From an uncultured Alphaproteobacteria bacterium (GTDB lineage Bacteria > Pseudomonadota > Alphaproteobacteria > Rs-D84), in contig CALXML010000007.1 of assembly GCA_944389465.1 (NCBI GenBank), forward strand, positions 1-50,510: a stretch of 50,510 nt of DNA, read 5' to 3'. This document shows positions 2,414 through 44,773 of this stretch, piece after piece. The notes beneath the pieces were generated by a model. It was given only the letters and a program-made list of their open reading frames with translations, was not told the origin of the DNA and did no database searches. Position 1 is the first letter of the stretch. Each line of letters begins with the position of its first letter. The translations under genes and the position numbers were made by a program.

Positions 2414-2582
2414 CGTCAATGGGCGTTCCATTGATGGGGTGTAGTAACCCGTGCAATTGTCAGCGATGACATAAAATATCGCCTCCACTTTCGGGTTGGA
2501 GGGTTGTGAATATACAGAATAAGCAACACTATATTGCATAGTTACTAACCTCCAACCACCTAAAATTTTTTGGTGGTTTTTT
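2414..2582 (+). ncRNA. Structured RNA element, copy 1 (leader of secreted-protein cassette)
   Basis: One of three related RNAs in this window. Elements in order: 5' hairpin TCAATGG/CCATTGA (2416-2434); conserved box GGGGTGTAGTAACCCGT (2436-2452); hairpin TGTCA/TGACA (2458-2471); segment CCTCCA (2482-2487); GGTTGGAGG (2494-2502); core GAATATACAGAATAAGCA; hairpin ACTAT/ATAGT; CCTCCAACC (2549-2557); terminator AACCACC/GGTGGTT with a T-run (2554-2582). TAGTAAC (2442-2448) can pair with GTTACTA (2541-2547). The gene for a small secreted protein starts at 2612 with its Shine-Dalgarno GGAGG at 2601-2605, complementary to the CCTCC strand. It could be a cis-acting attenuator or a stand-alone RNA. No known family is recognised. 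Confidence 0.75.
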
Positions 2583-2611: not shown

Positions 2612-3034
2612 ATGAAAAAACATTTATTAATTGCGGGCCTGATTTGTGTGGCCACAATTCCACCGACGTTTGCCGTCACCAAATGCGTAAAGTTAAATTC
2701 ATCAACAACGTGTACAAGTCGCTCTGGCGCGTTCGGGCAGTCAAATTGGTCAGCAACCTGTGGCGGTATAGAAATTCAGGGTGTTGCATTTTGCGGTTCG
2801 CAAGATGGCGGTTCAATTGGTGCAACATCCGAAAAAGTTATGACCAGTTCAACCAGTGACGATAACAAAAATTGTTGGTGCAAAATGGTTTCACCAGCGG
2901 TTTCGTCGTGGGTGTTCAACGTCTCGGCCGAGTCCGCCGGCGCTTGCGCGTACCTTTGCGCGTACAACTGTGCGAGCCGCGCTCAGTCCGATGCGTCTTT
3001 CCGGTCTGGATTGTTTGGCAGTCTGTCTGACTAA
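2612..3034 (+). CDS. Small secreted Cys-rich protein, cassette copy 1, first gene
   Basis: Function unknown. The 140-aa product has a clear signal peptide (MKK, hydrophobic core LLIAGLICVATI, likely cleavage after T-F-A), then a Cys-rich mature part of about 120 residues: T-K-C-V-K-L, S-T-T-C, A-T-C-G-G, A-F-C-G-S-Q, then C-W-C-K-M and a C-A-x-L-C-A-x-N-C-A run near the C-terminus, ending F-R-S-G-L-F-G-S-L-S-D. The even spacing suggests disulfides in the periplasm or outside the cell. I chose ATG at 2612 over the upstream in-frame ATG because it follows AAAGGAGG and gives a signal peptide of the same length as the paralogue at 20963. The two paralogues share N- and C-termini and differ in the middle. 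It follows a structured RNA with a terminator. Confidence 0.8.
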   Translation: MKKHLLIAGLICVATIPPTFAVTKCVKLNSSTTCTSRSGAFGQSNWSATCGGIEIQGVAFCGSQDGGSIGATSEKVMTSSTSDDNKNCWCKMVSPAVSSWVFNVSAESAGACAYLCAYNCASRAQSDASFRSGLFGSLSD

Positions 3035-20756: not shown

Positions 20757-20937
20757 CAGCACAGAGTGTTCCTGTGTTGGGGTGTAGTAACCCGTTAAAC
20801 TAGCGTCAGCAATCTGACGAAAAAAATCTCCAATCTATCTTTGGTTGGAGGGCTTGCGAATATATTGAATAAGCAGCACTATTCTAGTTTATAGTTACTA
20901 ACCTCCAACCACCTGAATTTTTTCGGTGGTTTTTTCA
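20757..20937 (+). ncRNA. Structured RNA element, copy 2 (leader of secreted-protein cassette)
   Basis: Same plan as copy 1 with changed but still paired bases: 5' hairpin CACAG/CTGTG (20760-20776); identical box GGGGTGTAGTAACCCGT (20779-20795); hairpin CGTCAG/CTGACG (20804-20819); CTCCAATC (20828-20835), which can pair with GGTTGGAG (20843-20850); core GAATATATTGAATAAGCA; hairpin ACTAT/ATAGT; CCTCCAACC (20902-20910); terminator AACCACC/GGTGGTT plus T-run. TAGTAAC (20785-20791) pairs with GTTACTA (20894-20900). The Shine-Dalgarno AGGAGG of the next gene lies at 20951-20956. Confidence 0.75.
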
Positions 20938-20962
20938 TTCGCAATGAAAAAGGAGGTTTAGA

Positions 20963-21385
20963 ATGAAAAAACATTTATTAATTGCTGGCCTGATTTGTAT
21001 GGCCACAATCCCACCGGTGTCTGCCGTCACCAAATGCGTAAAACTGTCATCATCAACAACGTGTTCCAATTATTCTGGCGCAACAAGTCAATCAAATTGG
21101 TCCGTAACATGCGGTGGCGTATCAGTACAGGGTGTTGCCTTCTGTGGCTCGCAGAGTGGTGGCTCACAGGGTGCAACATCCACCACTGTCACAATCAGTT
21201 CAACGGTTGATAATAACAAATATTGTTGGTGTAGAATGATATCACCTGCGGTGTCGCAATGGGTTTTCTACAGCGAATACGAGTCGCACAGAGTTTGCGC
21301 CAGTGATTGCGCGCAATACTGTGCGTACTATGGTTTGACCTTTGCGGCCTTCCGGTCTGCATTGTTCAGTAATCTGTCCGATTAA
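20963..21385 (+). CDS. Small secreted Cys-rich protein, cassette copy 2, first gene
   Basis: Paralogue of the 2612-3034 gene, exactly the same length (140 aa). The signal peptide MKKHLLIAGLIC...V-S-A is almost identical, and Cys positions are kept (T-K-C-V-K-L, T-C-G-G, A-F-C-G-S-Q, C-W-C-R-M, then a C-A-x-D-C-A-x-Y-C-A run). The middle and the residues between the late Cys differ most (E-S-H-R-V against E-S-A-G-A), which suggests diversification on a fixed disulfide frame. Strong AAAAAGGAGG before ATG. Function unknown. Confidence 0.8.
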   Translation: MKKHLLIAGLICMATIPPVSAVTKCVKLSSSTTCSNYSGATSQSNWSVTCGGVSVQGVAFCGSQSGGSQGATSTTVTISSTVDNNKYCWCRMISPAVSQWVFYSEYESHRVCASDCAQYCAYYGLTFAAFRSALFSNLSD

Positions 21386-21400
21386 ATGTGGGGTGCGAAC

Positions 21401-21679
21401 ATGAAACGAATTTTTATATTATTTCTGACAATTGCGCCGGCTGGCGCATTTGCCGCCGCACCGTCAACATCGTGCCCATCTGGTTATATCAAGGTGGTGG
21501 AAGAATATATGGATATTGCAGACAGTTCTTGCCCCACCGGATACACATCCGCCGGCACGGCAACCAGTTGTTTGGTATCAAACCCATCTGGTTCGTGTAT
21601 AATGTATGCACTAACCGGTGTCAGTTATACGGACGAATCCGGTACATACGAATATACGTCCGCATGCCCGTTGGAATAA
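21401..21679 (+). CDS. Small secreted Cys-rich protein, cassette copy 2, second gene
   Basis: Paralogue of the 3048-3326 gene, same 92-aa length. Signal peptide MKRIFILFLTIAPAGAFA, then S-T-S-C-P-S-G-Y, S-S-C-P-T-G-Y, T-S-C-L, G-S-C-I-M-Y-A and the C-terminal Y-T-D-E-S-G-T-Y-E-Y-T-S-A-C-P-L-E. An in-frame ATG at 21386 would add five residues; the copy-1 gene cannot use that position because it is out of frame there, so 21401 is the likely start, behind GGGGTGCGAAC. It is co-transcribed with the preceding gene. Function unknown. Confidence 0.8.
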   Translation: MKRIFILFLTIAPAGAFAAAPSTSCPSGYIKVVEEYMDIADSSCPTGYTSAGTATSCLVSNPSGSCIMYALTGVSYTDESGTYEYTSACPLE

Positions 21680-21699
21680 CCATGTCATTCCGCACCTTT

Positions 21700-21845
21700 G
21701 TCATTGCGGGGGGCGCAGCCCGACCGTGGCAATCTTCTTTTGTCATTGCGAGCAAAGCGAAGCAATCCAGTCATTATAAACTTATTTGCGTCAGCAAATG
21801 CGTTTTTATGGATTGCCACGCCATCTGCGATGGCTCGCAATGACA
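21700..21845. repeat. Dispersed palindromic repeat, copy 2
   Basis: Same orientation and position relative to the cassette as copy 1: GTCATTGCGGG unit, GTCATTGCGAGCAAAGCGAAG unit, the AT-rich middle with TTTGCGTCAGCAAA, then GGATTGCCACG...CGCAATGACA. Confidence 0.85.
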
Positions 21846-44349: not shown

Positions 44350-44504
44350 AGCGCATTGGATGATTACCAATGTGGGGCTTAACAACCTCTTAAAGGATAC
44401 TCCAATATTGGTTGGAGGGTTGCGAATATATTGAATAAGCAACGCTATTTTGTATTTAATAGTTGTTAACCTCCAACCGCCTTTCATCACGGCGGTATTT
44501 TTTG
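44350..44504 (+). ncRNA. Structured RNA element, copy 3 (leader of small HTH gene)
   Basis: Shorter, diverged copy. 5' hairpin CATTGG/CCAATG (44354-44372); TTAACAAC (44379-44386) pairs with GTTGTTAA (44462-44469), replacing TAGTAAC/GTTACTA of copies 1 and 2 at both strands; CTCCAA (44400-44405) can pair with TTGGAG (44412-44417); GGTTGGAGG (44410-44418) with CCTCCAACC (44470-44478); core GAATATATTGAATAAGCA identical to copy 2; hairpin CTATT/AATAG; terminator ACCGCC/GGCGGT plus T-run, again compensated. The small TGTCA-type hairpin is absent. Promoter-like TTGTTA...TATGTA precedes it. An HTH gene starts 27 bases on. Confidence 0.72.
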
Positions 44505-44530: not shown

Positions 44531-44773
44531 ATGACAGTAATATTATTTGATTCACGCGTGTTGGGTACTGCAATGACACATGGACGTAAAAATGCACGCC
44601 TGCGCCGTGGTGATGCGGCACGAATGTTAAAAATACCATATAAAACATTACGAAAATATGAACAGGGCCAACAAATGATACCAGATGCAATACTGGAAAA
44701 ATTACTGACATATGGATTTACATTATTGTATGCAAAACGTCCAGACTTAAAACAACAGACAGGAATGAAATAA
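44531..44773 (+). CDS. Small helix-turn-helix protein, 80 aa
   Basis: Probably a DNA-binding regulator. The short chain holds an HTH-like segment: R-K-N-A-R-L-R-R-G-D-A-A-R-M-L-K-I-P-Y-K-T-L-R-K-Y-E-Q-G-Q-Q-M-I-P-D-A-I-L-E-K-L-L, with the recognition helix around P-Y-K-T-L-R-K-Y-E. This resembles a minimal XRE-type fold; the basic tail is K-R-P-D-L-K-Q-Q. ATG at 44531 is chosen because GGGGGAT lies before it; an ATG at 44516 would overlap that site. It is preceded by RNA element copy 3 and followed by a terminator. Target unknown; it may share control with the two secreted cassettes through the common leader. Confidence 0.75.
   Translation: MTVILFDSRVLGTAMTHGRKNARLRRGDAARMLKIPYKTLRKYEQGQQMIPDAILEKLLTYGFTLLYAKRPDLKQQTGMK

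Follow-up and report, generated by a model that had tools for sequence, protein, structure and literature searches.

Three similar stretches of DNA recur in a 50,510-nucleotide window from the genome of Candidatus Enterousia, a gut bacterium of the order Rs-D84 with a genome of 0.95 Mb, raising the question of what RNA they encode and what it does there. A first-pass annotation, made from the letters alone, had described them as a three-copy family of structured RNAs with compensatory base changes, laid out as one fold and belonging to no class that it recognized. The elements it named were all recovered where it had placed them: namely, the 5′ hairpins, the long-range helix TAGTAAC/GTTACTA of copies 1 and 2 and its counterpart TTAACAAC/GTTGTTAA in copy 3, the GGTTGGAGG...CCTCCAACC helix, the core GAATATA..GAATAAGCA, and the terminators ACCACC/GGTGGT and ACCGCC/GGCGGT. 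Missed in that reading were the cis position of every copy, the presence of two alternative folds, and the expansion of the family across the genome.

Architecture of the three copies in the window

Each copy is a leader RNA followed by a gene. The parts are listed below, with states I and II denoting the two folds described further on; covariance-model E-values, here and throughout, are rough because calibration was shortened.

2402-2407, + strand: -10 box TATAAT of copy 1, ~8 nt 5′ of the first hairpin
2414-2589, + strand: copy 1 leader RNA (covariance model match, 166 bits, E 5e-44)
2416-2434, + strand: copy 1 P1, 5′ hairpin TCAATGG/CCATTGA
2442-2448, + strand: copy 1 P2 5′ strand TAGTAAC, partner 2541-2547
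2452-2457, + strand: copy 1 P3 5′ strand TGCAAT, partner 2533-2538 inside the P7 loop
2482-2487, + strand: copy 1 strand A, CCTCCA, partner of strand B in the putative terminating fold (state I)
2494-2502, + strand: copy 1 strand B, GGTTGGAGG, partner of A (state I) or C (state II)
2507-2523, + strand: copy 1 conserved P6 loop, TGAATATACAGAATAAG
2529-2541, + strand: copy 1 P7 hairpin CTAT...ATAG, with P3′ (ATTGCA) in the loop
2541-2547, + strand: copy 1 P2 3′ strand GTTACTA
2549-2557, + strand: copy 1 strand C, CCTCCAACC, common to the B:C helix and the terminator 5′ arm
2555-2583, + strand: copy 1 intrinsic terminator ACCACC/GGTGGT and U run
2599-2610, + strand: ribosome-binding site (RBS) of the gene behind copy 1, AAGGAGGTTTAG, complementing the P2′-C junction
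2612-3034, + strand: gene behind copy 1, secreted Cys-rich protein MKKHLLIAGL..., 140 aa, without Pfam family
20757-20942, + strand: copy 2 leader RNA (covariance model, 134 bits, E 5e-35)
20785-20900, + strand: copy 2 P2, TAGTAAC 20785-20791 with GTTACTA 20894-20900, enclosing P3, P4, A:B and P6
20908-20936, + strand: copy 2 terminator ACCACC/GGTGGT and U run
20963-21385, + strand: gene behind copy 2, paralogous secreted Cys-rich protein, 140 aa
44352-44508, + strand: copy 3 leader RNA, a short form without P4 (covariance model, 141 bits, E 7e-37)
44379-44469, + strand: copy 3 P2, TTAACAAC 44379-44386 with GTTGTTAA 44462-44469
44476-44503, + strand: copy 3 terminator ACCGCC/GGCGGT and U run
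44531-44773, + strand: gene behind copy 3, small XRE/HTH protein MTVILFDSRVLG..., 80 aa (HTH_31 E 1e-4, below cut-off)

Directly 3′ of the copy 2 gene lies another ORF, starting with GTG (21388-21843), which possibly belongs to the same leader-controlled operon. The Cys-rich family represented by 2612-3034 and its paralogues is expanded and rich in cysteines, with an invariant CWC.M.SPAVS.WV motif; the protein matched no Pfam family, and its predicted structure (pLDDT 72) had no fold match in PDB or BFVD.

Copy number and distribution

While the three window copies are real, the host genome holds about 37 copies rather than three. A pattern search of this genome found 16 true copies, and pattern matches beyond it include OX097180.1, 'Candidatus Enterousia intestinigallinarum'. 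A covariance model (R1) built from ten host-genome copies, window copies 1 and 3 among them, detected 34 copies at E ≤ 8e-15 and 37 at E ≤ 1e-4, and an extra copy, closer to sRNA-Xcc1, is located at G000:C1:142356. The covariance-model search for homologues that the first-pass annotation had proposed recovered them in nearly all sampled relatives, with leader matches in 91/96 genomes at the level of the genus, 95/95 at that of the family (13/13 genera) and 133/142 across the order Rs-D84. A second, broader model (R2), for which 39 diverse members were used and the sRNA-Xcc1 loci left out of training, matched 39 of 385 genomes sampled across the class Alphaproteobacteria, spanning ~22 families and nearly all 0.9-2.6 Mb in size; in a phylum-wide genome sample, R2 matched the two Enterousia genomes only. 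Members of the GTDB order Rs-D84 have reduced genomes and are thought to be symbionts or parasites (PMC12306168), and the host of the window is likely a symbiont.

Leader copies also lie ~60-430 nt from the ends of host-genome contigs C2, C3, C6 and C13 (e.g., C2:111529-111744 of 111808 and C3:161-337), which suggests that repeated leader-gene units break the assembly. In IMG/VR, the leader is found on four viral-class contigs (L205-L208); on one it precedes a Rha-like phage regulatory protein and on another an ABC-transporter-like protein (names by inspection). A plasmid search queried with an intermediate family member returned no match. The open-access literature text searched gave no account of such leaders in Enterousia, nor of sRNA-Xcc1 as an attenuator.

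Genomic position and downstream genes

Each leader has its own promoter and, judged by position, the RNA is cis-acting. In the host genome, a same-orientation ORF starts within ~30 nt of 36 of the 37 copies, and the genes so placed encode the secreted Cys-rich family (MKKHLLIAGL...), other secreted or surface proteins, and small XRE/HTH proteins. Among 155 unique copies from many genomes, a -10 box with at least 5/6 matches to TATAAT was found in 144, positioned at -11/-12 from the start of P1 in most, so that the promoter ends at the first hairpin; an ATG ORF begins within 60 nt of 134, and the copies without one are mostly upstream members of tandem arrays or are cut by contig ends. A terminator (a hairpin followed by a T run) stands behind strand C in 147/155 Rs-D84 leaders. 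Outside the order, the leader precedes beta-barrel outer-membrane proteins (Pfam match) and, by inspection, lipoproteins, prepilin-like, glycosyltransferase-like and HTH proteins, and others.

Tandem arrays place two or three leaders before one gene (L076:1501-2095, L116:2332-3023, L067:1245-1682, and L074:1501-1921), most copies retaining their own -10 box and terminator. In truncated copies (L106:2776-3117, L135:6173-6350, L136:382-541, and L143:3654-3812), the promoter lies directly 5′ of strand B and the B-P6-P7-C-terminator domain alone is kept; such copies could be a source of free antisense-like RNA.

Two small-HTH clusters account for 43 of the 134 downstream ORFs, a distribution that, together with the conserved P6 loop, would accord with a protein-binding attenuator, in which termination is set by a host or prophage protein, perhaps the small XRE/HTH product itself, bound to P1 or P6. 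However, DNA is the usual target of HTH domains, some leaders have no HTH gene behind them, and the sRNA-Xcc1 loci considered below have no consistent protein partner, so this mechanism is regarded as very improbable.

Two mutually exclusive folds

Covariation was tested in the host genome and in 121 distinct homologues (alignment A5) against 500 shuffles, which retain relatedness, and against sliding controls, in which the covariation score is at most a quarter of that observed. The proposal that this is a functional structured RNA whose paired bases change in compensation has full support, the observed covariation exceeding 500/500 shuffles and all slid controls. Across the 121 homologues, state I (P1, the long-range P2, A:B, P6, and the terminator) has 97.7% of cells paired and both-side changes at 26 of 28 pairs (0/500 shuffles), and state II (B:C, P6, and P7) has 96.7% of cells paired and both-side changes at 12/17 pairs (0/500 shuffles). 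Within alignment A5, P1 is paired in 96% of cells, with both sides changed at all 6 pairs, and P2 in 99%, with both sides changed at 7/7. For P3, which joins the P7 loop to the segment behind P2, the longest Watson-Crick run averages 6.15 nt within a locus versus 3.30 nt across mixed loci. The inner pair of P7 switches from UA to AU (74 versus 39), though P2/P3 exclude P7. In the 121 homologues, the P6 loop core is conserved at 83-98% per position.

As nested folds, P7 is incompatible with P2/P3, and B:C is incompatible with A:B; in addition, the last three bases of strand C (ACC) are common to the terminator. Because these mutually exclusive helix sets both show conserved covariation, two functional folds are indicated. 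The helices that had been laid out as parts of a single structure are thus real, but GGTTGGAGG/CCTCCAACC on the one hand and TAGTAAC/GTTACTA or the full terminator on the other belong to alternative folds. The minimum-energy fold of complete leaders is state I in nearly all copies, and the median cost of state II relative to it is 4.5 kcal/mol in transcripts that lack the terminator 3′ arm and 9.4 kcal/mol once that arm is present, pseudoknots and co-transcriptional kinetics being outside this calculation. State I may be the single stable structure, with state II a folding intermediate.

The near-identical leaders L048 and L049, from two species, differ by a fully compensated P2 (TAGTAAC/GTTACTA versus TCGAAAC/GTTTCGA), as might be expected of a diversifying specificity code.

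That the leaders are a non-functional repeat, a duplicated promoter-terminator cassette riding on expanding gene families, is scarcely credible: paralogous genes do stand behind many copies, but compensatory changes occur at most helix positions, the family extends to ~22 families of the class, and unrelated genes are found downstream.

Relation to sRNA-Xcc1

The window copies had been reported as belonging to no known class, and none of them reaches a gathering score in Rfam; other family members, however, match sRNA-Xcc1 (RF02221). The Rfam search that had been suggested as a check accordingly gave a divided answer, copy 1 having no RF02221 match and no credible Rfam match at all even at E ≤ 10, whereas family member L247 scored 56.2 bits, above the gathering score of 53. 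In Enterousia genome G074, RF02221 matches of 39.7 and 35.2 bits (E 6e-6 and 7e-5) lie inside two R1 matches. The RF02221 match spans the full model length and corresponds exactly to B-P6-P7-C, in the same order and on the same strand. Its Rfam consensus is the state II three-way junction (B:C, P6, and P7), and the leaders share its 9-bp outer stem, its hairpin with the AAUA../..GAAUAA internal loop, and its second hairpin, as well as its multi-copy occurrence upstream of genes.

sRNA-Xcc1 has been reported upstream of symE (PMC12444791), in seven copies in Xylella (PMC12189769), and in Xanthomonas as a discrete, abundant ~88-nt RNA with mapped ends, beginning at the outer stem (PMC2996969). 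RF02221 was found in 55/398 sampled phylum genomes, with up to nine copies each. At 30 sRNA-Xcc1 loci, the next ORF starts mostly 23-60 nt downstream, and the domains encoded there, in the genes tested, include SymE_toxin, Bro-N, KilA-N, Rha, and P22_AR_N. Upstream of sRNA-Xcc1, a P2 strand forms an 8-9 nt Watson-Crick run with the bases just 5′ of strand C at 22/30 loci, compared to 30/870 pairs across mixed loci, and at many loci it is followed by P3 (read by eye). R2 finds five of the sRNA-Xcc1 loci at full length (E 3e-4 to 4e-3). Given the upstream P2/P3 strand and these full-length matches, the RF02221 model appears to capture just the 3′ half of a more extended leader.

The terminator behind strand C sets the two groups apart, being present at 1/30 sRNA-Xcc1 loci versus 29/29 other alphaproteobacterial leaders outside Rs-D84. 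Instead, a terminator-like hairpin with a T run lies between P3 and B at 26/30 sRNA-Xcc1 loci, compared to 59/600 random windows. This hairpin, conserved in the upstream 100 nt of loci L249-L278, is a possible early terminator, and the upstream half of the sRNA-Xcc1 loci might be a separate short decoy RNA.

The published ~88-nt RNA would be equally consistent with a leader fragment and with an sRNA that is processed or transcribed on its own. sRNA-Xcc1 has also been described as trans-acting, and the tandem arrays, where copies carry a promoter and terminator each and some are cut down to the junction domain, would agree with independent small RNAs acting in trans, for which the location before genes would be of secondary importance. 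Such an interpretation is quite improbable for the family, since a same-orientation ORF follows directly, at short and narrow spacing, behind 36/37 host and 134/155 sampled copies, and the RBS co-varies with leader class (CAGGAG with CTCCTG leaders; Fisher p 4.5e-9, paralogous genes included).

The leaders could also constitute a new class of metabolite or second-messenger riboswitch, with a ligand at the conserved P6 loop or three-way junction shifting the terminator balance. A multi-copy surface-protein regulon, the conserved unpaired core, two alternative folds, and an intrinsic terminator would all suit a riboswitch. Nevertheless, sRNA-Xcc1 loci have the same conserved core, and the genes behind them, for prophage antirepressors and SymE, would be unusual targets for a metabolite sensor; nor is any biosynthesis or transport pathway prominent among the downstream genes examined. 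This explanation is considered unlikely. No match to known riboswitch aptamer families was obtained with Rfam models.

Narrower candidates were set aside on grounds of their own. An Hfq-dependent sRNA was rejected, Hfq having not been found in the host genome. Leader-peptide attenuation was rejected by eye because core GTG/TTG frames vary in frame and stop across copies, and P1 loop-core kissing proved inconsistent across copies, also by eye. c-di-GMP sensing was rejected as well: c-di-GMP is unlikely as the ligand because no GGDEF protein (PF00990) was found in the host genome, the control being positive in 8 genomes.

Complementarity to the ribosome-binding site

At sRNA-Xcc1 loci, the P2-P3 sequence recurs between strand C and the start codon; the P7 loop and P2′ are thus antisense to both the 5′ strand and the RBS region. 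The pairing with the RBS region has a median of -17.9 kcal/mol within a locus versus -12.3 kcal/mol with other loci, and 0/20000 permutations were as low (ranks were used for the upstream control in this test). RBS complementarity is moderate in other alphaproteobacteria (-11.7 versus -8.4 kcal/mol) and weak in Rs-D84 (median -10.6 kcal/mol with the own antisense strand versus -9.6). Since the Rs-D84 RBS pairs only slightly better with its own strand, the C4-like step may have disappeared from this order, and output may be through the terminator alone.

Proposed mechanism and significance

It is fairly probable that the leaders form a C4-like cis antisense/attenuator family that has been massively expanded in a likely symbiont. 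Computation supports the homology to sRNA-Xcc1, both folds, the position, the terminator, and, in sRNA-Xcc1 loci, the RBS complementarity. According to the proposed mechanism, each copy would be the 5′ leader of the next gene, starting at its own promoter and ending at an intrinsic terminator ~20-30 nt before the start codon. In state I, the 5′ strand (GGGG-P2-P3) would pair with P3′-P2′ and the CCUCC part of strand C, so that the A:B helix and the terminator form and the gene is off. In state II, which we infer to be the expressed state, B:C would form and close a three-way junction with P6 and P7, strand C would be withheld from the terminator and the Shine-Dalgarno region, and the gene would be on.

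The junction domain B-P6-P7-P2′-C is the part homologous to sRNA-Xcc1, and with the P7 loop and P2′ of sRNA-Xcc1 loci antisense to the RBS and the 5′ strand, the family as a whole would work like C4 of phages P1/P7: an upstream strand would compete for an antisense module carried in the leader of the very gene that it controls. In small-genome Alphaproteobacteria, an intrinsic terminator would have been fused to strand C, and in the Rs-D84 host genome the leader would have spread to ~37 surface-protein and HTH genes. As the terminator is usual and RBS pairing is weak, strand-exchange transcription attenuation is proposed as the main output in Enterousia, and we propose that this attenuation derives from a C4-like antisense leader.

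The P2 and P3 strands show correlated changes in otherwise near-identical leaders. A bolder, speculative extension, to which a low probability is attached, is that the ~37 leaders are insulated switches with a per-leader P2/P3 pairing code, through which each surface or regulator gene is switched independently or singly; this would be an RNA-based analogue of antigenic or phase variation in a symbiont with a reduced genome, originating from a prophage immunity antisense RNA.

RF02221 has so far been known solely as a trans-acting sRNA of 87 nt; these results indicate that it makes up the 3′ half of a longer RNA lying in cis before genes across Proteobacteria. sRNA-Xcc1 thereby gains a testable mechanism, in which a 5′ strand, an antisense strand, and an RBS or terminator would compete. 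A lineage has also been found in which the module has multiplied to tens of copies before cell-surface genes, the host being a likely symbiont with less than 1 Mb of DNA; ~37 copies of one cis-regulatory RNA per 0.95 Mb is an exceptional density.

Comparison with known systems

In some bacteria, the c-di-GMP-I (GEMM) riboswitch precedes surface-protein genes at tens of sites in the genome, with a terminator or the RBS as its output. The leaders resemble it in their many copies before surface-protein genes, but their structure is different and they have no Rfam match to it.

The C4 antisense RNA of phages P1/P7 is present in many copies per Acinetobacter genome (PMC5320573). As with C4 (RF01695; c4-2, RF02944), the antisense module of the leaders lies upstream of, and would be co-transcribed with, the controlled gene; C4 has three stem-loops whose loops complement the RBS region, a logic that the sRNA-Xcc1 loci share. 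The KilA-N, Bro-N, Rha, and P22_AR_N domains behind sRNA-Xcc1 loci likewise represent a C4-like setting. Strand B begins with GG, and A/G-CC follows strand C, an arrangement resembling C4 and tRNA acceptor stems; by analogy, the junction domain may be released in an RNase P-like manner. C4 covariance models had no match at the leader or sRNA-Xcc1 loci searched. In contrast to C4, an extra upstream strand competes for the antisense, a terminator-based variant exists, and RBS pairing is weak in Rs-D84.

The closest relative remains sRNA-Xcc1. Its Rfam model covers an 87-nt 3′ half, whereas the leaders extend to ~155-220 nt with P1, P2, P3, P4, and strand A, and carry an intrinsic terminator fused to strand C. 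The leaders thus represent a new form within an already catalogued, though poorly understood, RNA family, a form that is longer, bears a terminator, and has been greatly amplified.
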